The notes under the pieces are model-generated. The model worked only from the letters and a program-made list of their open reading frames with translations, did not search any database and was not told where the DNA came from. The translations under genes and the position numbers were made by a program. A DNA stretch of 64,000 nucleotides from Kiloniellaceae bacterium (GTDB taxonomy: Bacteria; Pseudomonadota; Alphaproteobacteria; Kiloniellales; J153), in the NCBI GenBank assembly GCA_021776115.1, contig JAJFGN010000070.1:62001-126000 (forward strand), read 5' to 3'. Each line of letters starts with the position of its first letter. The stretch's first letter is position 1. This document shows positions 43,125-59,826 of the stretch, in pieces.

Positions 43125-44120
43125 TTACTCGGCGGCCAGCGTGCCGCTCTGTGTCGGAGGTATCGCGCCGGTCTGACGCGTGCTTTTGGGGACTTGCTTG
43201 TACTGCTCCCGATAACACTTGGCGAAATGGGACGGCGACACGAAACCGCAGGCCAAAGCGACCTCCATGACCGGGAGCGAGCTTTCGTTCAGCAGACGAC
43301 GGGCCCGTTGCAGGCGCAATTGCAAATAATACCGCCGGGGGGTGCGCGCCAGGTACTTGCGGAACAGGCGCTCCATTTGGCGCGAAGATATGCCGCAACC
43401 CTCAGCCAGCTCGACGCAGGATAACGGTTCCTCCAGGTTTTCCTCCATCAGCGCTATGACCTCCAGGACCTTGGGATGCCCCAAGCCCAGGCGCACACGC
43501 AACGGCATGCGCTGGCGGTGATCGTCCTCACGGATGCGTTCATGCAGTAACTGCTCCGCGACCGCGATCGCCAGTTCGCGGCCGTGGTCGATTTCGATCA
43601 TGTGCAGCATCAGGTCGAGGGTCGCGGTCCCGCCGGAAGCGGTGAAACGGGTTCGGTCTATGCGGTAAAGCTCGGCGCCGACCTCGATATCGGGAAAGGT
43701 CTCGACAAAACCGGGTAGGCATTGCCAATGGATGGTACAGCGATATCCGGTCAGGAGACCAGCGCGGGCCAGAATAAATGCGCCGTCCGACAAGGCGCCG
43801 ACCCGCGCACCTTCGCGGGCCGCACGGCGCAGCCAAGCAAAGACAGCCTTGTCCTTGAAGAGGTGCGCGTCGAGGCCGCTGCATACGGCGATATCGTCGA
43901 ATCCCCCGGCGGCCTCGGTCGAGGCCTCGGCGACGACCTGCAGGCCGTTCGAAGCCGCGACCGGCCGGCCGTCGCGGGAGATCGCGCGCCAGCGGTACAA
44001 CTCTTGCCCACTCAATAGGTTGGCCGCGCGCAGCGGTTCGACCGCCGAGGTGAAGGCCAACATGGCGAACTTGGGGACGAGGAAGAACCCGAAAGTTCGC
44101 GGTGCGCGGATACGAGCCAT
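43125..44120 (-). CDS. GlxA-family transcriptional regulator (DJ-1/PfpI + AraC)
   Basis: 331 residues. Residues about 8-190 are an amidotransferase-like DJ-1/PfpI domain (FFLVPKFAMLAFTSAVEPLRAAN; ARVGALSDGAFILARAGLL, with SD in place of the nucleophile Cys, so non-catalytic as in this regulator class). Residues about 225-320 form an AraC HTH pair (LSCVELAEGCGISSRQMERLFRKYL, LPVMEVALACGFVSPSHFAKCYREQY). Relatives such as GbdR and CdhR control betaine and carnitine breakdown. It stands just downstream of a Rieske oxygenase gene, which is probably its target. Confidence 0.87.
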   Translation of the reverse strand: MARIRAPRTFGFFLVPKFAMLAFTSAVEPLRAANLLSGQELYRWRAISRDGRPVAASNGLQVVAEASTEAAGGFDDIAVCSGLDAHLFKDKAVFAWLRRAAREGARVGALSDGAFILARAGLLTGYRCTIHWQCLPGFVETFPDIEVGAELYRIDRTRFTASGGTATLDLMLHMIEIDHGRELAIAVAEQLLHERIREDDHRQRMPLRVRLGLGHPKVLEVIALMEENLEEPLSCVELAEGCGISSRQMERLFRKYLARTPRRYYLQLRLQRARRLLNESSLPVMEVALACGFVSPSHFAKCYREQYKQVPKSTRQTGAIPPTQSGTLAAE

Positions 44121-44174
44121 GCGGCCAGTCTATCCGACTTCGCACCGCTGGCCCAGGACCGGCGGGCCCGACGG

Positions 44175-45395
44175 TCAGGCCGCGCCCGCGCCGTCGGCCG
44201 CGGCCCCTGCGCTTTCGGCTGTTGCCAGTGACCGCGCCATCCAACGATGGAAGCAATGGGTCGGCGGTTCCAAGACCGGGGTAAAGACACCGCCCTGGAA
44301 CGCCGGCGAGGCGCGGCCGCGCTGCATTTCCTCGACCACGTTGACATCCTCGGCGAAAACCGCGCGCCAGTTCTCGGCATTCGCCGCGCGCACGCCGGCG
44401 AAATCGGGGCCCAGGGGCGTTTCGCCCACATAATAGATCTCGAAATGCTCGATCGTGCGGTCCGGCCCCAATGGCTCCAGCCGCACCGCATAGAAGTGAT
44501 CGCAGTGCAGGCCGAGCAGGAGGTTGGGAAACAGGGCGATGTATTCGGCCGCTCCGTCCCATTTCGCCGGCAGCTTTGGGAAGCGGTTCAGTGCCGGGTC
44601 AGCATTTGACGTTTGCGGCTTGTAGGCGGTGCTACCCTGGCCGGCGAAAAAGCCGTCTTCCGCAATGTTGTAATGATCTTCAAGGCGCGAGTAGGCGTTC
44701 AGGCCGGGATGAATCCAGGGCAGGTGATAGGCCTCACAGTAGTTTTCGACGGCGAGCTTCCAGTTGCATCCTACCTCGAAACGCAGGGAGGAATCCGGCC
44801 CGCCGTGGCGAATCAGGCTTAGGTCGAAATCGGCCCAGCGCGCGGCAAGGGGCGCGACGTGATCCTCGAAGGCTGGAGCGTCACCCGAGAGATTGACGAA
44901 AATTTGGTCCAGCCACACGGTGCTGCGCACCTCACGCAGGCCATGCCGGGACTTGTCGAAGCCCTCGACGTTGTTCTTCCTAACCCCGCCGACCGACGGC
45001 GTGGCGCGCAGCCGCCCCTCGAAATCGTAGGCCCATGAGTGGTAGGGGCAACGCAGGGTCGTCAGGCTCTTGCAGGGCTGCGTCACCAGGCGGTGGCCGC
45101 GATGGCTGCACACGTTGTGGAAGACGCGCACCTTGCCGTCGCGCCCGCGTACGCTCATCAGCGGCAGGCCCACAAGGTCGGCCGGGCGCGCGTCGCCCGG
45201 ATCGGGGATGGCGCTGGCCATGCCGATGCAGGTCCAGGTCCGCGCCAGAACGCCGTCGCGCTCCTGAAGCGCGAAATCCGGCCCCGTGTAGGCCACGTTG
45301 GGCAGGCCCTTGGCCTGCTCGATCGGCCTGTCGATTCCCGCTAGAACCTCGGCCCAGGTGATTGCCTGCGGTCCGATAGCGATTTCTTGTACCAT
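44175..45395 (-). CDS. Rieske aromatic-ring-hydroxylating/betaine-type oxygenase alpha subunit
   Basis: 406 residues from ATG 45395 (MVQEIAIGPQAITWAEVL). The Rieske [2Fe-2S] motif is NVCSHRGH..CPYHSW, and the mononuclear iron site is NYCEAYHLPWIHPGL. The C-terminal catalytic domain is of the choline-monooxygenase/glycine-betaine-demethylase style (FPNLLLGLHCDHFYAVRLEPLGPD; ED-VNVVEEMQRG). With the adjacent GlxA-type regulator, a role in demethylating a quaternary amine such as betaine or stachydrine is plausible but unproven. No reductase partner gene is adjacent. Confidence 0.85.
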   Translation of the reverse strand: MVQEIAIGPQAITWAEVLAGIDRPIEQAKGLPNVAYTGPDFALQERDGVLARTWTCIGMASAIPDPGDARPADLVGLPLMSVRGRDGKVRVFHNVCSHRGHRLVTQPCKSLTTLRCPYHSWAYDFEGRLRATPSVGGVRKNNVEGFDKSRHGLREVRSTVWLDQIFVNLSGDAPAFEDHVAPLAARWADFDLSLIRHGGPDSSLRFEVGCNWKLAVENYCEAYHLPWIHPGLNAYSRLEDHYNIAEDGFFAGQGSTAYKPQTSNADPALNRFPKLPAKWDGAAEYIALFPNLLLGLHCDHFYAVRLEPLGPDRTIEHFEIYYVGETPLGPDFAGVRAANAENWRAVFAEDVNVVEEMQRGRASPAFQGGVFTPVLEPPTHCFHRWMARSLATAESAGAAADGAGAA

Positions 45396-45722
45396 GTCCC
45401 GACTCCAGTCCGGCATGGGGTCCCTCGGATCGAGGGCCCGACCACCCAGGTATTCCGTTACATCTAGGTCAAGGCAGGCCGGTATTCCTGCGGATTCGCG
45501 TCAAGTTTCTGTCGCAAATTCGCGAGGATTTGGGGCGTAAACCCGCAGGAATGATGGCCCCAAACGTGCCTCAGAAGCGCCATAGTCTGGGGCTAGCAAA
45601 TACCCGCCACCGGCCGATCCGCCGGGGTCTAAGCGCACGACATCCTCGTAGGAATCAAGGACCCCTGGTTCCTGTCCGGTAGGTCGTGGTATCCCAAAGC
45701 GGCCTGGAACAGGAGGGTGGCC
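45396..45722. other. Divergent intergenic region Rieske gene / chvI
   Basis: 327 bases without a gene. It contains an inverted repeat ATTCCTGCGG (45484-45493) / CCGCAGGAAT (45543-45552) with 49 bases between, and inside it a near-palindrome TCGCAAATTCGCGA (45512-45525). These lie about 90-160 bases upstream of the Rieske gene and could bind the GlxA-type regulator. AGGAGG at 45711-45716 sets the chvI start. Confidence 0.5.
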
Positions 45723-46424
45723 ATGCAGCACACCATCGCCCTGGTTGACGACGACCGGAACATTCTTACTTCAGTCTCAATCGCCTTGGAGGCGGAAGGA
45801 TTTAAGGTGCGGACCTATGCGGACGGCGCGGAGGCCTTGCGCGGCCTCTCGGCCAGTCCGGCGGACGTTGCCATTCTGGATATCAAGATGCCGCGCATGG
45901 ACGGGATGGAGTTGCTTGGCCGCCTGCGTAGTTCCTCGAACATGCCGGTAATTTTCCTGACCTCGAAGGACGACGAGGTAGACGAGGTTCTGGGGTTGCG
46001 CCTCGGCGCCGACGACTACATCACCAAGCCGTTCTCGCAGCGCCTCTTGATCGAACGAATTCGTGTCCTGCTGCGCCGCGAGCGTGGTGCGAAGGATGAC
46101 TCGGGCGCGGGGTCCGGTGAAAAACCCATGTTGCGGGGCGATCTGGTGCTCGATCCGGCGCGTCATCTGTGCACTTGGAAGGACCAGCCCGTCAATTTGA
46201 CTGTAACTGAGTTCTTAATTCTCAAAGCCTTGGCCGCGCGGCCGGGACACGTGAAGAGCCGCGATCAGCTGATGGATTCGGCTTACGGCGAATCGATTTA
46301 CGTCGATGACCGGACCATCGATAGTCATATCAAACGGCTGCGCAAAAAATTTAAAGACCTCGACGACGATTTCAACGAGATCGAAACTCTTTACGGTGTC
46401 GGCTATCGTTATAAGGATCGATAG
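45723..46424 (+). CDS. chvI: Response regulator ChvI
   Basis: 233 residues from ATG 45723 (AGGAGG six bases before). Receiver domain with DDDRN near the start, the phospho-acceptor Asp in [13 protein letters not shown] (about residue 51) and the LTSKDDE...[10 protein letters not shown] run; C-terminal winged helix ([62 protein letters not shown]). The sequence is that of ChvI/BatR, the partner of ChvG. This pair governs envelope, acid and host-contact responses in Alphaproteobacteria. The kinase gene follows 74 bases later. Confidence 0.94.
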
Positions 46425-46498
46425 CGGCGGCGCCAGCGGTGTGGGGGAGCCGCTTCGCCGATTTCCCGCGGCGCCTCCGGTGCTGTATTCTGGAAGCC

Positions 46499-48202
46499 AT
46501 GAGCGCCGATCATGACACCAAAGGACGGTCCACGGGTCCGGCCGCGGGCAGGCGGATGCGCGCTCCGCAGCCCGCAGCCGCCGAGCGCGCGACGGCGCGG
46601 GTGCGGCGCAGACGTCGGCGGCCTGGGGTTCGCTCGCCGCTGATCAGGCGGATTCTTCTGCTCAATGTCTTGGTGCTGGTGATTCCCGTGTTGGGCCTAC
46701 TGCACCTCGACCAATACCGCCATACGCTGATTGCCTCCGCACTGGACGGCCTGCGCGTCCAGGCGCGTACCTTCGCTTTGACCCTGGGGAGCGCCGCCGT
46801 GGTCGGCACCCCGCTCGGCGAGGAGCGTCTAATGGCCGAATCGGCCCGCCACTTGATGCGCGTCTTACTATACGACACCGGCGTGCGGGCGCGCATTTTC
46901 GACCGTGGCGGCGACCTCGTGGCCGATAGTTTCGTATTGGTAGGGCCGGGCGGTTTGGTTCAGGTGGTGGAGCTTCCGGCTGCCGACAAAAGCGGCTTAC
47001 TGGCCGCGTTAGAGCGCTGGTACGACAGGGTCACCGACTGGCTGCCGTCAAGCGATGAACTGCCTCTCTACACGGAGTCGCGCACGCAAACTGCAGCCGA
47101 TTATGAGGAAGTTCAGCGGGCCCTGAATGGCGAGGCGCTCGGCGTGGCTAGGGCCGACCGCCGGGGCCGCCTGATGCTCTCGGTCGCCGTACCGGTCCAG
47201 CGCTACCGCCAGGTGCTGGGCGGGCTCATGGTGTCCATGGACGGGGCCGAGGTCGACGCCGCCGTGAGCGCTCGCCGCTTGGATATTTTGCTTGTTTTCG
47301 GTGTTGCCTTGGCGGTTACCGTGCTTTTGTCGTTGTATCTGGCCGGGACCATCGCCCGGCCGATCCGCCGGTTGGCCCTGGCGGCCGATCAGGTACGCTA
47401 CGGTAAAGGCCGCAAGTATGAAATTCCGGATTTCACCCGCCGGGGCGACGAAGTTGGCGACCTTTCAGCCGCTTTACGGGACATGACGGCCGCATTGTGG
47501 GCCCGGCTCGACGCCATCGAGGGCTTCGCCGCCGACGTGGCGCATGAGATCAAGAACCCGCTGACGTCTTTGCGCAGCGCGGTCGAAACCGTGGCCCGGG
47601 TCGAAGATCCGGATCAGCAAAAACGCCTCATGTCGATTATTCTCGACGACGTGCAGCGCCTGGACCGATTGATCAGCGATATATCCGGAGCTTCTCGCCT
47701 CGACGCCGAACTGTCGCGGGCCGAGAGCACGCCAGTAGATATCGCCCACTTGCTCACGACCCTGGTCGAAGCGCACGACGCCACGGCGCCGGCCGACGGC
47801 CCGCGTTTCCGGCTGGAGGTCGATTCCAGGGAGGACCTGACCGTTCTGGGTATGGAAGACCGGCTCGGTCAAGTGTTGCGCAATCTCATTAGCAACGCGA
47901 TCACTTTCAGCCCGTCCAACGGCGAGATCGTGCTCTCCGCCCGGCGCGACGGGTTCTGGGTCGTCATGACTGTCGAGGACGCGGGCCCCGGTATTCCCGA
48001 AACCAAGCTCTCGGCTATCTTCGATCGATTCTATACCGAACGGCCCAGCAGTGAGAAATTCGGCACCCACTCGGGATTGGGCCTGAGCATCTCGAAGCAG
48101 ATCGTCGAGGCCCACGGCGGCACGATCGCGGCGGAGAACCGGTGCGGCGACGATGGTAGGCCACGCGGAGCGGCATTTACGGTTCGCTTGCCGGCGGCCT
48201 AA
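46499..48202 (+). CDS. chvG: Sensor histidine kinase ChvG
   Basis: 567 residues from ATG 46499. A basic N-tail, then TM1 (RRILLLNVLVLVIPVLGLLHLDQYR), a periplasmic domain of about 210 residues beginning HTLIASALDGLRVQARTFA (typical ChvG), TM2 (ILLVFGVALAVTVLLSLYLAG), HAMP (IARPIRRLALAADQVR), HisKA with VAHEIKNPLTSLRSAVE, and ATPase motifs NLISNAITFSP, DAGPGIP and HSGLGLSISKQ. In relatives the periplasmic inhibitor ExoR controls ChvG; no exoR is in this window. The HprK-RapZ gene follows 64 bases later. Confidence 0.94.
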   Translation: MSADHDTKGRSTGPAAGRRMRAPQPAAAERATARVRRRRRRPGVRSPLIRRILLLNVLVLVIPVLGLLHLDQYRHTLIASALDGLRVQARTFALTLGSAAVVGTPLGEERLMAESARHLMRVLLYDTGVRARIFDRGGDLVADSFVLVGPGGLVQVVELPAADKSGLLAALERWYDRVTDWLPSSDELPLYTESRTQTAADYEEVQRALNGEALGVARADRRGRLMLSVAVPVQRYRQVLGGLMVSMDGAEVDAAVSARRLDILLVFGVALAVTVLLSLYLAGTIARPIRRLALAADQVRYGKGRKYEIPDFTRRGDEVGDLSAALRDMTAALWARLDAIEGFAADVAHEIKNPLTSLRSAVETVARVEDPDQQKRLMSIILDDVQRLDRLISDISGASRLDAELSRAESTPVDIAHLLTTLVEAHDATAPADGPRFRLEVDSREDLTVLGMEDRLGQVLRNLISNAITFSPSNGEIVLSARRDGFWVVMTVEDAGPGIPETKLSAIFDRFYTERPSSEKFGTHSGLGLSISKQIVEAHGGTIAAENRCGDDGRPRGAAFTVRLPAA

Positions 48203-48266: not shown

Positions 48267-49637
48267 ATGAAAACGCAGACTGTTCACGCGACCTGCGTCG
48301 CGCTCGATGGGACGTCAGGCCGGTGTGGGATCCTGCTACGCGGTCCCTCCGGGGCGGGTAAATCCGATCTGGCGCTTCGATTGATTGACGAGGGCGCGCG
48401 CCTGGTCGCCGACGATCGGTGCGAGCTCAGTCTGGACGAATCGGGCCAAGGTGTAGCGCCGCGTGTGATCGCACGGGCCCCGGCCGCTCTGGCTGGGCGG
48501 ATCGAAGCGCGTGGACTGGGCATCGTCGAGGCGCCCCGCGTCGCCGAGGCGCAGGTCGTGTTGATCGTCGATCTCGTTCGCGGCGACGCGGTTGAACGCC
48601 TGCCGGAGCCTTTGTGCGAGGACCTTATGGGCGTCGCGCTGCCGTGCCTGGCGCTCGATCCGTTCCAAGTCTCGGCGCCGGCCAAGCTGCGCCTGGCTCT
48701 GGGCCAATTGGCGGCGCCCGGCTCCGCCGCTGTGCCCGGCACGGCTGCCGAATCAAAGACCAAGATCGAGCGCAGGCGCGTTGTTTTGGTCACAGGCATG
48801 TCCGGCGCGGGGCATTCTACGGCCCTGAAAGTCTTGGAAGATGCGGGTTACGAGGCCATCGACAACCTGCCGCTCAGCCTGCTCGACGCGGTCTTGTTTG
48901 AAGCCGAATCGACCCGGCCTCTCGCCGTTGGCATCGATACCCGCACCCGCCGCTTTGCCGCCGCGACCGTGATCAATCACCTACACAGTCTGACCACCCA
49001 TACCGACTTGGCTGTGACTCTGGTGTTTCTCGACTGCCAGGACGATGTCCTTGTGCGCCGCTTCACCGAGACACGCCGGCGCCACCCCCTGGCGCGGGAC
49101 CGCCCCGTGGCCGATGGCATTTCGGCCGAACGTGGACTAATCGCGCCGCTTAAAGCGCGTGCCGACCTGATGCTCGATACCTCCGTATATTCTCCGGGAG
49201 AGCTCGGCCGTGTCTTGGCTGGGCATCTTGGCCTGGGGGAGGGTATGGGCATGACGCTATTCGTGACCTCCTTTTCATTTCGTCACGGCCTGCCACGCGA
49301 GGCCGATCTGGTGTTCGATGTGCGATTCTTAACCAATCCCCACTACGAACCCGCGCTTCGGCCCTTCGACGGACGCGACCCCAGAGTTGCCGCTTATATA
49401 GAAAAAGACCCAGAATTCGCGGATTTCATGGCCCGCCTGACCGGCATGCTTGCGCCGCTGCTCCCGAGGTACGAGCGCGAGGGGAAGAGCTATCTGACGA
49501 TCGCCGTTGGATGTACCGGCGGCCGCCATCGCTCGGTCTTGGTCGCGGAGCGGCTTGGCGCCTGGTTTCAAGAGCTGGGCCGGCCGGCGGAGATCAGCCA
49601 CCGCGATGTTGAGTCAGGCGGCAATCCCGCGCACTAG
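48267..49637 (+). CDS. Fused HPr kinase/phosphorylase and RNase adapter RapZ
   Basis: 456 residues from ATG 48267. Residues 1-147 are a short alphaproteobacterial HprK: Walker A GPSGAGKS (26-33), LVADDR (47-51) and the EARGLGIVEAP signature (80-90). A linker of about 22 residues (APGSAAVPGTAAESKTKIER) joins it to a full RapZ/YvcJ protein (171-456): P-loop-like GMSGAGHS (177-184), AIDNLP (198-203), DTSVYSPGELG and GCTGGRHRSVLVAERL. The genes are usually separate and adjacent. The RapZ P-loop Lys is His183. HprK phosphorylates or dephosphorylates HPr on Ser; RapZ senses sugar-amine or nucleotide signals. No frameshift or stop is seen at the junction. Confidence 0.9.
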   Translation: MKTQTVHATCVALDGTSGRCGILLRGPSGAGKSDLALRLIDEGARLVADDRCELSLDESGQGVAPRVIARAPAALAGRIEARGLGIVEAPRVAEAQVVLIVDLVRGDAVERLPEPLCEDLMGVALPCLALDPFQVSAPAKLRLALGQLAAPGSAAVPGTAAESKTKIERRRVVLVTGMSGAGHSTALKVLEDAGYEAIDNLPLSLLDAVLFEAESTRPLAVGIDTRTRRFAAATVINHLHSLTTHTDLAVTLVFLDCQDDVLVRRFTETRRRHPLARDRPVADGISAERGLIAPLKARADLMLDTSVYSPGELGRVLAGHLGLGEGMGMTLFVTSFSFRHGLPREADLVFDVRFLTNPHYEPALRPFDGRDPRVAAYIEKDPEFADFMARLTGMLAPLLPRYEREGKSYLTIAVGCTGGRHRSVLVAERLGAWFQELGRPAEISHRDVESGGNPAH

Positions 49638-49707: not shown

Positions 49708-50112
49708 ATGATCGGAATGGTGCTCGTTACCCATGGGCGGCTCGCCTCGGAATTCGTTGCCGCTCTGGAGCACGTCGTGGGGCCGCAGAAGAATATTGCC
49801 GCTATTTGCATCGGTCCAGACGACGATATGGAACAGCGCCGCCGCGAAATAATCGAAAGTGTCGGCAAGGCGGACAAAGGCCGGGGGGTCGTACTCTTGA
49901 CCGACATGTTCGGGGGCACCCCATCCAATTTGGCGATCTCCGTGCTCGACCAGGGGCGGGTCGAGGTTATTGCCGGGGTCAATTTACCGATGCTCATCAA
50001 GCTAGCGAGCTTGCGCGAGAGCGAGACTTTGACGTCGGCGGTGGCGCAAGCGCAGGAAGCGGGCCGAAAATACATCAACGTCGCGTCGCAGTTGCTGGCG
50101 GACAAGAGCTGA
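49708..50112 (+). CDS. PTS EIIA component, mannose type
   Basis: 134 residues. EIIA-Man fold: MIGMVLVTHG with active His9, then DMEQRRREIIESVGKADKGRGVVLLTDMFGGTPSNLAISVLD and INLPML-like 'GVNLPMLIKLASLRES'. It accepts phosphate from HPr. No EIIB, C or D genes are near, so it belongs to the regulatory, transport-free PTS of Alphaproteobacteria. It lies 70 bases after the HprK-RapZ gene and 16 before HPr. Confidence 0.93.
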   Translation: MIGMVLVTHGRLASEFVAALEHVVGPQKNIAAICIGPDDDMEQRRREIIESVGKADKGRGVVLLTDMFGGTPSNLAISVLDQGRVEVIAGVNLPMLIKLASLRESETLTSAVAQAQEAGRKYINVASQLLADKS

Positions 50113-50128
50113 AGACACGGGGGGTCAT

Positions 50129-50407
50129 ATGACTGTGACGCCCGCGACGATCCGTGCGACGATCCGCAATCGGCGGGGTTTGCACGCCCGCGCGGCGGCG
50201 AAATTCGTTAAATTGGCCGGCACCTTCGACGCCGAGGTCATGGTGCAGGCCAATGGAACCGAGGTGCCGGGCTCGTCGATCATGGGTCTGATGATGCTCG
50301 CGGCCTCGACTGGATGCGAACTTTTGTTGACGGCTAGGGGCCCCGAGGCCCGCGCCGCTGTCGAGGCCCTGGCGGCCTTGGTCGGAAAGAAATTCGATGA
50401 AGACTGA
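50129..50407 (+). CDS. Phosphocarrier protein HPr
   Basis: 92 residues. NRRGLHARAAAKF carries His19, phosphorylated by EI, and VPGSSIMGLMMLA carries Ser50 before IMG, the site expected for the HprK domain encoded nearby. Both sites together with HprK imply dual control of the pathway. Its last codons overlap the start of the EI gene by 11 bases. Confidence 0.95.
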   Translation: MTVTPATIRATIRNRRGLHARAAAKFVKLAGTFDAEVMVQANGTEVPGSSIMGLMMLAASTGCELLLTARGPEARAAVEALAALVGKKFDED

Positions 50408-52247
50408 AAAGCCCGCAAAAAAAGCCAAGCGTGCTGCGCCAAAAACGCGTGGGGCGGAAAAGCCGCGCGCAAAGGCCAAGGCTCCAGTCGCCGATCCGCG
50501 CGGGCAAAGTGTATTCGAAGGTCTTGGCGTTTCGCCGGGAATCGCGATTGGCCAAGCGCATCAGCGCGACGGTGGCGATGTCCAGGTGATCGAGCGCCAG
50601 ATCGCCAAAAGCGAGGTTGAGAGCGAACTAGAGCGGTTTCAGGGTGCCGTCGCGCAGTCCCTGCGTCAGGTCGCGAAGCTCAAAACCAAGGCCAAGACGT
50701 TTCACGGCACGGCGGCCGAAGAACTGGGATTTCTGCTAGACGCGCACACTCACATGCTCGAGAGCCGCAGCCTTGTCGGTGGAATTAGGCAGCGCATCCA
50801 GGCCAGATTGTGCAACGCCGAAGCGGCGGTCATGGCCGAGATCGGTGTTATCGCGCGAAACTTCGCCGAAATGGACGATGCCTATTTACGCTCGCGCGGC
50901 CAGGAGGTGCGTGAAGTCGGCCTGAGAATCGTGCGGAATCTAGCCAAGGCGACTTTCAGTGGGTTCGATCACCTAGAGCCGGGCAGCATCGTCATCGCGG
51001 AAGAAATCACCCCCGCCGACACAGCCTTGATGAACCCGCGCATCGTAGGTGGATTCGCTTGTGCGATCGGCGGTGCGGAAGGGCATACCGCGATTATGGC
51101 GCGCTCGCTGGGCCTGCCGGCGGTCCTAGGTGTCGGCGCATTGATCGGCGCCGTGCACAGTGGCGACACCGTGATTGTCGACGGCTCGAACGGCGTGGTG
51201 GTGATCAATCCATCGGCGGCTTGCCGGAGCGATTACGAACGCCGGCGCAAGGCGATGGAGCGTGAGACTCAGGCCTTGGGCCGCCTGCGCAACGTCGCGC
51301 CGGTGACGCGCGACGGTATCCGTGTGACCTTGCAGGCGAACCTAGAATTGCCGCGCGAAGTTGGCCAAGCGGTCGCGGCAGGGGCGGAGGGCATAGGCCT
51401 TTTGCGCACAGAGTTCCTGTTTATGAATCGCGACGACTTACCGAGCGAGGACGAACAGACAGCGGCCCTAACCGAAATCGTCGAAGCCATGCCGGGGCGC
51501 CCGGTTACCGTGCGCACCCTGGATATCGGGGGTGAGAAGTTGACCTCCTCCCTGGGGGCGCATTTCGCCGAAACATCGAACCCGGCGCTTGGCTTGCGCG
51601 CGATTCGCCTGTCGCTTAAGGAACCCAAGCTATTGGAAACGCAGCTTGCCGCCATGTTGCGTGCCAGCGCGAAGGGTAATCTGCGCATCCTCCTACCCAT
51701 GATATCGACCGTCTCGGAAGTTAAGGAAGTCCGCAAGATTCTGGCCAACGTCGCGGCCCGGCTCAAGCGTCGGGGTGTGCGGATTGCCGATCCTCTTCCG
51801 CCGCTCGGCGTTATGATCGAAATACCGGGCGCCGCCCTTACGGCTGACGCCTTGGCCAAGGTCGCGGATTTCTTCGCCATCGGCAGCAACGATCTGACGA
51901 TGTACACACTGGCGATCGACCGTGGCGAGGAAAGCGTTGCCCATCTTTATAACCCGCTCCATCCCAGCGTCCTGAGGTTGATGCAATTCGCCGTTCAGGC
52001 AGCGCTGCGCGCCCGCATCCCGATCTCGATCTGCGGTGAGATTGCCGGCGATGTGCGTTTCACGGCCCTAAACCTGGGGTTGGGTGTGCGCGAGTTGTCG
52101 ATGGGGGCGAACGCCTTGCCGCGCATTAAAAGCCGTATTCTGAACCTGGATATGCAGGCCGCGACTCAGCGGGCGGACATGATCATGGACCAGTACGACG
52201 CGGGCCGAATCGCAGCCTTGCTCGACGATTTCAACGATGCCAGCTAA
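50397..52247 (+). CDS. ptsI: Phosphoenolpyruvate-protein phosphotransferase (EI)
   Basis: 616 residues. The EI fold begins at VFEGLGVSPGIAIG (residue 39). The phospho-histidine is His230 in GGAEGHTAIMARSLGLPAV; PEP-binding parts are GIGLLRTEFLFMNRD, VTVRTLDIGGEK, IGSNDLTMYTLAIDR and ICGEIAGD. No GAF domain precedes it, so it is EI rather than PtsP. Residues 1-36 are an unusual Lys/Ala/Pro-rich tail (KTEKPAKKAKRAAPKTRG...). The start overlaps HPr, and no other ATG fits. Donates phosphate to HPr and EIIA. Confidence 0.95.
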   Translation: MKTEKPAKKAKRAAPKTRGAEKPRAKAKAPVADPRGQSVFEGLGVSPGIAIGQAHQRDGGDVQVIERQIAKSEVESELERFQGAVAQSLRQVAKLKTKAKTFHGTAAEELGFLLDAHTHMLESRSLVGGIRQRIQARLCNAEAAVMAEIGVIARNFAEMDDAYLRSRGQEVREVGLRIVRNLAKATFSGFDHLEPGSIVIAEEITPADTALMNPRIVGGFACAIGGAEGHTAIMARSLGLPAVLGVGALIGAVHSGDTVIVDGSNGVVVINPSAACRSDYERRRKAMERETQALGRLRNVAPVTRDGIRVTLQANLELPREVGQAVAAGAEGIGLLRTEFLFMNRDDLPSEDEQTAALTEIVEAMPGRPVTVRTLDIGGEKLTSSLGAHFAETSNPALGLRAIRLSLKEPKLLETQLAAMLRASAKGNLRILLPMISTVSEVKEVRKILANVAARLKRRGVRIADPLPPLGVMIEIPGAALTADALAKVADFFAIGSNDLTMYTLAIDRGEESVAHLYNPLHPSVLRLMQFAVQAALRARIPISICGEIAGDVRFTALNLGLGVRELSMGANALPRIKSRILNLDMQAATQRADMIMDQYDAGRIAALLDDFNDAS

Positions 52248-52391: not shown

Positions 52392-53792
52392 ATGACCAAG
52401 TTCACCGATTTCGAGATCAAAGATATCTCGCTCGCCGACTGGGGCCGCAAGGAACTTAATATAGCGGAATCCGAGATGCCGGGCCTGATGGCGCTGCGTG
52501 ACGAGTTCGGGACCAAGAAGCCGCTCAAGGGCGCGCGTGTGGCCGGCTCGCTGCACATGACGATCCAGACCGCGGTCTTGATCGAAACGCTCAAGATCTT
52601 GGGCGCGGATCTTCGTTGGGTGTCGTGCAATATTTATTCGACCCAAGACCATGCCGCGGCTGCGATCGCCAAGGCCGGGATCCCGGTTTTTGCCTACAAG
52701 GGCGAATCGCTTGAGGAATATTGGGACTTTACCCACCGCCTTTTCGAGTGGGGCGATGGCGGTGCACCGAACATGATTCTGGACGACGGTGGCGACGCCA
52801 CCTTATTGGTCCATCTGGGTAAGCGCGCGGAAAAGGATATTTCGCTCGTGTCCAAACCGGAGACCGAGGAAGAGGAGTTCATGTTCGCCGCCATCAAGAA
52901 GCGGTTGGAAAGTCAGCCGGGTTGGTATTCGAAAATCGGCAAGGACATACGTGGCGTCACCGAAGAAACGACGACGGGCGTGCACCGGCTCTATCAAATG
53001 GAAAAGCAAGGCAGCCTTCTTTTTCCGGCCATCAACGTCAACGACTCCGTGACCAAATCGAAGTTCGATAATCTTTACGGCTGCCGGGAAAGCCTGGTCG
53101 ACGGTATCCGCCGGGCGACAGACGTCATGATGTCGGGCAAGGTCGCGGTGGTCGCCGGTTTTGGCGATGTTGGCAAGGGGTCTTCCGCTTCTCTACGCAA
53201 CGCCGGGTGCCGGGTGCTAGTCACTGAAATCGACCCGATCTGCGCCTTGCAGGCGGCGATGGAAGGCTACGAGGTCGTCACCATGGAAGATGCCGCGCCG
53301 CGCGGCGATATCTTCGTCACCACGACCGGCAACCTCGACGTCATCACCATCGACCACATGCGCGCCATGAAAGACCGCGCGATCGTGTGTAACATCGGCC
53401 ACTTCGATAACGAGATTCAGGTCGGCGCGCTGCGCAACTTGAAGTGGACCAACATCAAGCCGCAAGTCGACGAGATCGCTTTTGCCGACGATAAGCGGAT
53501 CATTTTGCTGGCCGAGGGGCGCCTGGTGAATCTGGGTTGCGCGACCGGGCATCCCAGCTTCGTGATGAGCGCCTCCTTCACCAATCAGGTGTTGGCGCAG
53601 ATCGAGCTTTGGACCAAGCCCGACGCTTATGAAAAGAAAGTCTATGTCCTGCCCAAGCATTTGGACGAAAAGGTCGCAGCGTTGCATCTGGCCAAGGTCG
53701 GGGCGCACTTGAGTAAGTTGAGCCAGCAGCAGGCTGACTATATCGGCGTTTCGGTCACAGGACCGTTCAAGCCGGAACAATACCGTTACTAA
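52392..53792 (+). CDS. ahcY: Adenosylhomocysteinase
   Basis: 466 residues, the long alphaproteobacterial type with the ~40-residue insertion ([33 protein letters not shown]). NAD-binding [17 protein letters not shown], active-site region [13 protein letters not shown] and [13 protein letters not shown], and the C-terminal KPEQYRY that reaches the partner subunit are complete. It hydrolyses S-adenosylhomocysteine to adenosine and homocysteine, relieving inhibition of methyltransferases. The following gene is a DivL-type kinase. Confidence 0.98.
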
Positions 53793-57551: not shown

Positions 57552-58040
57552 ATGGCCGCGCCGCTTTCGCGCTCTATCAGTCTTAGTCTGGACTTGCCCG
57601 ATGTGGCGGCAACCGCCGCCTTGGCGCAAGCCGTGGCCGGCCGCGTGCGTCCGGGCGACGTCGTCGCCTTGTTCGGCGATCTGGGCACGGGCAAGACGAC
57701 CTTCGCGCGGGCCTTTATCCATGCGCTATCCGGCGCCGCCGAGGAAGACGTGCCCAGCCCAACCTTCACACTGGTGCAAGTTTACGAACGCGCGCCCGCG
57801 CCGGTCTGGCACTTCGATCTCTATCGCCTGGAGCGGCCGGAAGAGGTCTATGAGTTGGGCTTCGAGGACGCCTTGGCGCAAGGCATATCGCTGATCGAGT
57901 GGCCGGAACGTCTTGGTCCGCTTCTGCCGCGTGACCGGCTCGACCTGAGACTGAATTTCGCCGCGGATCCTAACGCGCGCCTGGCCGAACTGAGCGGCCA
58001 CGGAAGCTGGGCGACGCGGTGCGGGGAGTTGTCTTTATGA
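57552..58040 (+). CDS. tsaE: tRNA t6A biosynthesis ATPase TsaE
   Basis: 162 residues from ATG 57552; upstream in-frame residues have no family character. Walker A GDLGTGKT (42-49), then SPTFTLVQVYE, the WHFDLYRLERPEEVYELGFEDAL stretch and SLIEWPERLG, all standard in TsaE/YjeE. With TsaB, TsaC and TsaD it makes threonylcarbamoyladenosine-37 in tRNA. Its stop overlaps the amgK-like start as ATGA. In Caulobacter and relatives tsaE also sits near divL (recollection). Confidence 0.94.
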   Translation: MAAPLSRSISLSLDLPDVAATAALAQAVAGRVRPGDVVALFGDLGTGKTTFARAFIHALSGAAEEDVPSPTFTLVQVYERAPAPVWHFDLYRLERPEEVYELGFEDALAQGISLIEWPERLGPLLPRDRLDLRLNFAADPNARLAELSGHGSWATRCGELSL

Positions 58041-59056
58041 CCGCAAATCGCGCCCCGCTGATCGACGCGTTTCTCGCGGCTGCGGGTTGGTCCGGGTCGT
58101 CGCGCCGCTTATTGGCCGCCGACGCTTCCTTCCGCCGCTATGACCGGGTCACGCGTGGAGACGCGCGGGCGGTCCTTATGGATGCCCCGCCGCCCAAGGA
58201 AAGTGTGACGGCCTTTCTGCGGGTAGCAACGCGGCTGATCGATCTGGGGCTCAGCGCGCCACGTCCGCTGCATGTCGATGAGTCCGCCGGCTTGCTGCTG
58301 CTGGAAGATTTCGGCGACCGTACCTTCACCCGAGCCCTGGCGGAGGGAGTGGAAGACTCCACGCTTTATCCCTTGGCGATCGATACCTTGATCGCGTTGC
58401 ATCGTGCCTGGCAATCTGCGACGCATGACGCTACAGGCTTGCCGCCTTATGACGACGTGCGCCTGCTCGAGGAAGCGGCGCTTTTCGCCGTGTGGTTTCT
58501 GCCCGCGGTGCGGGGCGTGGAGACACCGGATGTCCTCAAGGTCTCGTACCTCGAGGCGTGGCGCGCTGTTTTGCCCGGTGCGCACGGCGTGCCCGATACC
58601 CTGGTTTTGCGCGATTATCACGTCGATAATCTCATGCTGCTCCAGGATCGCGCCGGAATCGCGGCCTGCGGTGTGCTCGATTTTCAGGACGCGGTTATCG
58701 GGCCTTGTTCTTATGACGTCGTTTCCTTGTTGGAGGACGCCCGGCGCGATATCGCGCCCGCCATCGTGGAGGCCATGCTGACCCGCTACCTCGACGCATT
58801 CCCGGATCTGAACCGGGCCGCGTTCCAGGACTCCTACGCCGTCCTGGGAGCGCAGCGCGCGGCCAAGATCATCGGGATATTTACGCGTCTGCAGCGGCGC
58901 GATTCCAAGGCGCAGTACTTGCGCCACATCCCGCGATTGTGGCGATTGCTCGAGGCGGGTTTGGAAGGACCGGTACTGGCCCCGGTCAAGGCATGGTTCG
59001 ATCGTGAGGTGCCGGCCGAACAGCGTATAACGCCGCCCGTCGAGGTGCGGCCATGA
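58037..59056 (+). CDS. amgK: Cell-wall sugar kinase AmgK (aminoglycoside phosphotransferase family)
   Basis: 339 residues from ATG 58037. APH fold: ASFRRYDRV and VLMDAPPPKESV near the start, the catalytic LRDYHVDNLML and the metal-binding VLDFQDAVIGP, ending with LQRRDSKAQYLRHIPRLWRLL. Proteins of this type followed directly by a nucleotidyltransferase are AmgK (anomeric N-acetylmuramate/N-acetylglucosamine kinase) with MurU. They turn recovered MurNAc into UDP-MurNAc and bypass de novo synthesis. Overlaps both neighbours by 4 bases, so the three genes are tightly coupled. Confidence 0.87.
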   Translation: MTANRAPLIDAFLAAAGWSGSSRRLLAADASFRRYDRVTRGDARAVLMDAPPPKESVTAFLRVATRLIDLGLSAPRPLHVDESAGLLLLEDFGDRTFTRALAEGVEDSTLYPLAIDTLIALHRAWQSATHDATGLPPYDDVRLLEEAALFAVWFLPAVRGVETPDVLKVSYLEAWRAVLPGAHGVPDTLVLRDYHVDNLMLLQDRAGIAACGVLDFQDAVIGPCSYDVVSLLEDARRDIAPAIVEAMLTRYLDAFPDLNRAAFQDSYAVLGAQRAAKIIGIFTRLQRRDSKAQYLRHIPRLWRLLEAGLEGPVLAPVKAWFDREVPAEQRITPPVEVRP

Positions 59057-59826
59057 GGGGCGCCACGAAAAAGCCCCCGGCCCAGAAGAATAAAACGGTC
59101 ATCCCAAAACGGGCCATGATCCTGGCCGCCGGCCTGGGTGAGCGAATGCGGCCCCTGACCGCCACCCGGCCCAAGCCTCTGATCGAAGTGCGGGGGCGCG
59201 CGATGATCGATTCCGTCCTCGATCGTCTGGAGACAGCCGGTGTGAACGAGGCGGTCGTGAACCTGCACTACCTCGGACATATGATCGAGGCGCATCTAAA
59301 GGACCGCACGCATCCGCGCGTCTCCTTCTCACCCGAAGCCGAGCGTTTGGAAACCGGCGGCGGCGTGCGCAACGCCCTGCCGTTGCTTGGCGAGGAGACG
59401 TTTTTCGTCATCAATGGCGACATTTGTTGGCTCGACGGCTGCACGCCGGCTTTGGACCGCTTGGCGGCCGCTTGGGACGACGCCCGAATGGACGCGCTGC
59501 TACTGGTGCACCCCACGGCCTTCGCGGTTGGCTACGAAGGACGCGGCGACTTTTTCCTGGATCCCCACGGGCGTCTGCGCCGCCGTGGGGAGCGCGAAGT
59601 TGCCCCCTTTGTCTTCGCCGGTATGCAAATTCTCCACCCGCGCTTGTTCGACGATGCGCCGGATGGTGCCTTTTCACTCAACCGCTTGTATAACGCGGCG
59701 GCCGAGCGGGAACGCCTCTGGGGTCTGCGCCACGACGGCGATTGGTTTCACGTCGGAACGCCCGAACAGCTCGCCGAGGTCGAGGATGAACTGCATCATC
59801 TGAGCATTCACTCGGTGCACCGGTGA
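59053..59826 (+). CDS. murU: N-acetylmuramate-1-phosphate uridylyltransferase MurU
   Basis: 257 residues. The nucleotidyltransferase signature AMILAAGLGERMRPLT begins at residue 21 and is followed by TRPKPLIEVRGRAMIDSVLDRL; FSPEAERLETGGGVRNALPLL and FFVINGDICW complete the sugar-1-phosphate uridylyltransferase pattern. Residues 1-20 (GATKKPPAQKNKTVIPK) are a basic extension; an alternative start at the second Met would remove it. The ATG overlaps the amgK stop as ATGA. Supports peptidoglycan recycling with AmgK. Confidence 0.88.
   Translation: MRGATKKPPAQKNKTVIPKRAMILAAGLGERMRPLTATRPKPLIEVRGRAMIDSVLDRLETAGVNEAVVNLHYLGHMIEAHLKDRTHPRVSFSPEAERLETGGGVRNALPLLGEETFFVINGDICWLDGCTPALDRLAAAWDDARMDALLLVHPTAFAVGYEGRGDFFLDPHGRLRRRGEREVAPFVFAGMQILHPRLFDDAPDGAFSLNRLYNAAAERERLWGLRHDGDWFHVGTPEQLAEVEDELHHLSIHSVHR

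Follow-up and report, generated by a model that had tools for sequence, protein, structure and literature searches.

Does an open reading frame that joins an HPr kinase (HprK) to a RapZ-type adapter encode one protein, and if so, what does the joining do? The frame lies within the window (the whole stretch of DNA analysed, 64,000 nucleotides), and its parts and neighbours are collected in Table 1. Translation gave a single uninterrupted frame of 456 codons plus stop encoding HprK and RapZ, just as the first-pass annotation had read it, and Pfam placed three domains on the protein, all above their cut-offs: Hpr_kinase_C (residues 3-91), RapZ-like_N (172-320) and the RapZ C-terminal domain (329-449). 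Upstream of the ATG at 48267 the frame is also free of stops, from 48087, and the conserved region starts at that ATG. The fusion protein was the sole match when used as a query against its own genome (4.3 Mb, 98.7% complete), with no second HprK or RapZ found across the 85 contigs.

Table 1. Features of the hprK-rapZ locus in the window.
Feature	Coordinates	Strand	Basis
Response regulator, ChvI-like	45717..46424	+	Response_reg and Trans_reg_C; the ChvI name rests on position
Sensor kinase, ChvG-like	46439..48202	+	Stimulus_sens_1, Sensor_TM1, HAMP, HisKA, HATPase_c
hprK-rapZ fusion gene	48267..49637	+	Open frame, translation, domains, equal frame in relatives
HprK half, residues 3-149	48273..48713	+	Pfam Hpr_kinase_C, model, Foldseek, residue conservation
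HprK-half sites: Walker A 26-33, DD 49-50, signature EARGLGIVE 80-88, His7, Arg111			
Linker, residues 150-170, Ala/Pro/Ser/Gly-rich, without in-frame ATG	48714..48776	+	Comparison with other fused loci
RapZ N-terminal P-loop domain, residues 172-320	48780..49226	+	Pfam RapZ-like_N, alignments
RapZ C-terminal domain, residues 329-449, pocket His359, Thr417, Gly418, His421, Arg422	49251..49613	+	Pfam, alignment to E. coli RapZ
EIIA of the mannose family	49708..50112	+	EIIA-man
HPr, presumed substrate, 0.5 kb downstream of the fusion	50129..50407	+	PTS-HPr
Enzyme I (EI) without GAF domain match	50397..52247	+	PEP-utilisers domains; TIGR01417 511 bits, above cut-off
Adenosylhomocysteinase, ahcY	52392..53792	+	AdoHcyase, TIGR00936 above cut-off

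The Hpr_kinase_C match scored 54 bits (cut-off 33.3) over positions 6-85 of the 171 in the domain, and the HprK motifs GPSGAGKS, D49-D50 and IEARGLGIV were all present. The Walker A motif sits at residues 26-33 as first annotated, while the EARGLGIVE signature occupies residues 80-88 and not 80-90. Compared with the consensus printed in the available part of a Brucella study, (I/L/M)E(I/V)RG(I/L/M/V)G(I/V)(I/L/M) (PMC2937029), this signature departs at Ala81 (for Ile/Val) and Val87 (for Ile/Leu/Met). An AlphaFold2 model of residues 1-156 had a mean pLDDT of 93.4, and Foldseek returned 26 PDB matches to it with E <= 0.001, every one an HprK chain; as modelled, residues 3-149 are an HprK catalytic-domain fold. 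The fusion reached 57 bits against TIGR00679 (NCBIfam HprK, cut-off 240), a partial score that is expected because alphaproteobacterial HprK is of a short type, described as about 130 residues shorter at the N-terminus and as lacking a conserved region at the C-terminus (PMC2937029, available part). The half observed here is likewise without the extra N-terminal domain and the C-terminal region of firmicute HprK, and since both regions are missing in Alphaproteobacteria generally, we filed it as a short HprK subtype only. Its earlier description as a complete short HprK is right by alphaproteobacterial standards, with the HprK fold and a median length of 146 aa for separate HprK neighbours (an estimate from 155 loci), but does not extend to the missing firmicute N- and C-terminal regions. 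Among the 40 sequences aligned out of 42 fused HprK of the window's order, K32, S33, D49, D50, R82, G83 and G85 were kept in all 40, H7 in 39, and E80 and R111 in 38 each.

The RapZ half matched NF003828 (NCBIfam RapZ) over positions 1-278 of 278 with 324 bits (cut-off 244), and alignment showed it to be full length against E. coli RapZ, in agreement with the first reading of a complete RapZ. E. coli RapZ (5O5O, 5O5Q) is likewise full-length and shares the C-terminal pocket with the fusion (PMC5737377, PMC7073468, available parts). The E. coli pocket residues His190, Thr248, Gly249, His252 and Arg253, taken from the available text of PMC5737377, correspond one for one to His359 (kept in 40 of 41 fused sequences), Thr417 (39 of 41), Gly418 (40 of 41), His421 (40 of 41) and Arg422 (40 of 41), the tally covering 41 aligned of the 42 fused sequences of the window's order, one with gaps at the pocket. 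E. coli RapZ differs from the fusion in having no HprK and in having a Walker A lysine, a basic RNA-binding tail and the GlmY/GlmZ RNAs; in the fusion the lysine is a histidine, three of the four tail residues are non-basic, and GlmY/GlmZ were not detected in the genome. The tail of the fusion carries Ser450, Gly451 and Gly452 at the places of E. coli Lys281, Arg282 and Lys283 (by ungapped extension of the alignment end) and keeps one of the four basic residues, Arg439, aligned with Lys270. Mutating these four E. coli residues abolishes RNA binding, and the RNA-binding part of RapZ is described as restricted to Enterobacteriaceae, with a highly conserved pocket (PMC7073468, available part). 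A search of the window's own genome for GlmY/GlmZ (RF00128) gave 0 matches, and the identical search detects them in E. coli. Outside Enterobacteriaceae, both the GlmY/GlmZ system and the RNA-binding tail of RapZ are said to be absent. The RapZ homologue YvcJ of B. subtilis is, in the available part of PMC7525490, also without evidence of RNA binding.

The lost Walker A lysine of the RapZ half is His183 (codon 48813-48815). This position was Arg or His, and never Lys, in the 59 aligned RapZ of the window's order, fused or separate, and among the other loci fetched from outside the order Lys and Arg were both common. RapZ of the window's order may not be a P-loop NTPase of the classical kind. 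In YvcJ this lysine is needed for UDP-GlcNAc binding (PMC7525490, available part); with it replaced, the N-terminal domain of the RapZ half may not bind nucleotide as YvcJ does, and we claim no NTPase activity for it. We rejected a tie between the fusion and the loss of the lysine, because the separate RapZ of that order, 18 of 18, carry Arg as well.

The first-pass annotation had raised the concern of a stop lost near 48700-48790, and the relatives did not bear it out. The same open frame was found in three other species of the window's genus (75, 79 and 85% identical) and, more widely, in 42 of the 61 genomes searched in the window's order, ruling out a sequencing error or lost stop. A locus was called fused when the HprK and RapZ matches lay in one frame with no stop between, and contig ends cut the sequences behind some of these calls (L061, L073, L078, L088). 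Eighteen of the remaining genomes had separate adjacent genes, and one, with a partial RapZ and no HprK found beside it, was left unclassified. The search for further proteins with both families, suggested at first reading, thus revealed a widespread fusion: the fused state was observed in 8 of the 8 families of the order, with separate genes in genera of three families. Among the 80 loci listed in a scan of named genomes, L098 ('Rhodospirillales bacterium BBD 1991-14') was the sole one to stay fused.

Fusions were also observed beyond this order. Among 289 genomes drawn evenly from the class, at least two uninterrupted two-domain matches lay outside the window's order (G334 and G071), a lower bound, as split matches could hide further fusions. 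None of eleven further class genomes with long frames was fused (eight separate, three without detected HprK). The order of G334 (43 genomes) contained 29 loci with both halves, which were placed on a tree, 3 of them fused (G334, G358, G354) and 26 separate; its 14 other genomes fall outside this classification. When 398 genomes were drawn from the phylum, the matches listed included none that covered both domains without interruption and lay outside the window's order. Two candidates were rejected: G541, whose RapZ frame looked long enough for part of an HprK match but whose HprK lies in another frame (separate), and a Paracoccus locus (L152) with a run of N between its halves.

The linkers of the fused loci range from 14 to 64 codons and are rich in Ala, Pro, Arg, Gly and Ser, and by eye we found no conserved motif in them; in this comparison the window's linker was counted from residue 146. 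The 1,630 linker codons from the 47 loci called fused (a set in which the later rejected L152 gave no codons) contained 0 in-frame stops, versus 41 and 25 in the other two frames, and the linkers therefore look translated.

We built a tree of joined HprK and RapZ pieces with 74 rows (58 of the window's order and 16 others, three short rows having been dropped), on which the fused/separate state changed at least six times. The separate rows of the window's order need four changes (bootstrap 5th-95th percentile 4-4), three of which are forced by well-supported branches alone, and no bootstrap tree out of 200 (0%) had a branch that set the fused rows of the order apart from the rest. For example, the separate L069 is nested among the fused L022 and L078 (support 100/98 and 99/93), and a separate genus (g16) is joined with the fused L066 (98/95). 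The backbone is weak, with support of 32/10 for the window's order itself and an unsettled bootstrap. Quick trees of 119 rows, in which L152 was still included, gave nine changes; L152 is absent from the 74-row tree. Our preferred reading, which is not proof, is a single old fusion that was split again in some lineages, plus a few additional fusions; an alternative history in which fusion rather than splitting recurred is possible. As separate genes recur within the window's order, the fusion looks dispensable.

From these observations, we give about even chances to an old, translated fusion that makes one bifunctional protein, a kinase tethered to an adapter. A passive collapse of the operon, in which the stop between adjacent genes was lost and the domains stay independent, with only equal synthesis gained, has a considerable chance of being the true account, if short of an even one. 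The variable linkers and the six state changes agree with it, as do 9 of the 18 separate loci of the window's order, where nothing more than one in-frame stop parts the halves (elsewhere 22 of 123 and 3 of 26). These single-stop loci (L029, L058-L060, L062, L069, L071, L074, L077) belong to only three genera. The rates of the two halves also conform to passive collapse. In the fused proteins they correlated with a partial r of 0.23 given ChvG (24 rows), compared with 0.43 for one set of 27 separate pairs and a mean of 0.38 (sd 0.15) for 20 random sets of 24, so that the correlated-rate test found no excess coupling of HprK and RapZ in fused proteins over separate pairs. Varying linkers, a fusion that is sometimes absent and the lack of excess rate coupling together make passive collapse a serious rival. 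Against it, the fused state in all eight families is easier to understand with some advantage, which is weak evidence, as a harmless fusion can persist too. Within the preferred reading of a bifunctional protein, the case for tethering is stronger than that for a built-in switch because the linkers vary from 14 to 64 residues and excess rate coupling is lacking. The earlier phrase that the two activities are locked 1:1 is literally true of the chain; as a fine-tuned interlock it is opposed by the variable linkers, the repeated state changes and the rate comparison.

What a tether could serve was considered from the gene neighbourhood, which reads chvI-chvG-(fusion)-EIIA-HPr-EI-ahcY in the window. 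The best NCBIfam match of the sensor kinase is ChvG at 478 bits, below the cut-off of 740. His19 and Ser50 of the neighbouring HPr stand at what we take to be the usual HPr places. The PtsP type of EI carries a GAF domain, for which the EI here gave no match; a second EI is encoded on another contig of the genome (C31), and the genome has one match to the EIIA-Ntr/fructose family. Among the 42 fused loci of the window's order, ChvG was upstream at 40 (the other two near contig ends), EIIA downstream at 39 (two near contig ends, one not found) and HPr downstream at 37 (most others near contig ends). Separate-gene Alphaproteobacteria have the same neighbours at most loci: at 116 separate-gene loci outside both studied orders, three of which repeat other loci and a few of which are not alphaproteobacterial, ChvG was upstream at 88 and EIIA downstream at 112, which supports the earlier statement that separate adjacent hprK and rapZ between chvG and the EIIA gene are a common state elsewhere. 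Azospirillum brasilense, for instance, has the same two families adjoining but as two proteins, annotated 'HPr kinase/phosphatase C-terminal domain-containing protein' and 'RNase adapter RapZ'.

Further genes were observed around this locus. Two genes at 58019-59826 (+), 8-10 kb downstream of the fusion and after a TsaE gene, are most like AmgK (N-acetylmuramate/GlcNAc kinase; best NCBIfam match 262 bits, cut-off 500) and MurU (255 bits, cut-off 370); on these best matches, below the curated cut-offs, they would be peptidoglycan-recycling enzymes. Upstream of chvI, at 43125-45416 (-), are an AraC-type regulator with a DJ-1/PfpI domain and a Rieske ring-hydroxylating oxygenase. The gene pckA is not directly beside the window's locus; in Brucella it neighbours the corresponding one (PMC2937029, available part).

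Among the closest known systems is the truncated HprK/P of Brucella melitensis, at the same locus type as the fusion, where HprK stands alone and the gene order as stated has no rapZ between hprK and the EIIA gene (PMC2937029, available part). There Ser61 of NPr is phosphorylated by the truncated enzyme, whose gene is transcribed together with those for EIIA, NPr and the ChvG/ChvI homologues, and a section on two-hybrid assays reports HprK self-interaction and, in its title, an HprK-NPr contact (same source). By analogy with this short enzyme, the HprK half may phosphorylate the serine of the neighbouring HPr. The RapZ half would bind an amino-sugar phosphate in its C-terminal pocket and act as a protein-binding adapter rather than an RNase adapter, and the flexible linker would tether the kinase to the partner of the RapZ half, most plausibly the adjacent ChvG or PTS proteins. 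One complex near ChvG could in this way handle cell-wall-precursor status together with PTS status. We know of no RapZ-ChvG contact. E. coli RapZ senses glucosamine-6-phosphate (GlcN6P) and, when free of it, binds and stimulates the histidine kinase QseE (PMC7073468, available part), making such a contact reasonable. Osmotic shock and some of the antibiotics aimed at peptidoglycan elicit a response from Caulobacter ChvGI (PMC9731502, available part). It is from the stimulation of QseE, this ChvGI response and the nearby AmgK/MurU-like genes that a kinase-adapter near ChvG is proposed.

A single chain could also integrate these signals, with an amino-sugar phosphate bound by RapZ altering how the attached kinase acts on HPr-Ser, and with ChvG as a further contact of this protein, which we consider unlikely. 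Still more doubtful is the route proposed in the first-pass annotation, in which the RapZ half senses HPr or its phosphorylation via the attached kinase and passes this on to ChvG/ChvI. The gene order chvG-hprK-rapZ-EIIA-HPr kept at most loci, the stimulated autokinase QseE (PMC7073468) and the Brucella co-transcription (PMC2937029) are consistent with this route, but we found no evidence for RapZ binding HPr, in E. coli the signal comes from the amino sugar and not from HPr, and the available part of the Brucella study reports no HprK-BvrS or HprK-BvrR contact in the two-hybrid assays.

Internal starts may add a free RapZ at some loci. An in-frame ATG was observed in or near the linker at 22 of the 47 loci called fused, and in the corresponding stretch of 131 of 158 separate RapZ genes. 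Several ATG-bearing linkers, read by eye, resemble the start of a former RapZ gene, so that extra free RapZ is possible at those loci. The window's linker has only TTG and GTG, no ATG and no detected Shine-Dalgarno site, in a scan so insensitive that only 27 of the 158 separate genes gave an ATG with such a site; the linker of L002, the closest relative by identity, is without any start codon. That the fusion is not one protein in the cell, through an assembly artefact or through internal initiation giving free RapZ alongside or instead, therefore has these ATG codons in its favour and is nonetheless very improbable, given the equal frame in 42 genomes of the window's order, the two linkers without ATG and the fact that internal initiation cannot remove the fused product.

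The fusion apparently has not been reported, the gene pair being what is known, and protein databases may already list the architecture. A search by title and abstract, with most subscription journals outside its reach, found no description of an HprK-RapZ fusion; the available part of a 2026 PTS-Ntr review contains no word beginning 'fusion' or 'fused' (PMC13104625). A 2008 survey of 222 genomes, in its available part, describes HPrK as always alone except for the tandem HPrK-HPrK of Fusobacterium nucleatum, a fusion that includes HPrK but no RapZ part (PMC2405797). The possibility raised at first reading, that the fusion is common and well described, was thus borne out in its first part, for one order, and not in its second within the literature searched.

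A fusion of neighbouring genes is in itself unsurprising. Its recurrence and its retention across the window's order are classical, although not conclusive, evidence of joint action, from which separate HprK and RapZ are predicted to interact, and the value of the finding lies in this prediction that the separate proteins work together. If the single chain does integrate the signals as set out above, then cell-wall precursor supply, PTS state and the ChvG/ChvI envelope response would be set by one molecule, and the separate HprK and RapZ of other Alphaproteobacteria would be partners in one complex. The fusion also offers a handle on the role of RapZ outside Enterobacteriaceae, and on the control of HprK where the PTS seems not to import sugar.
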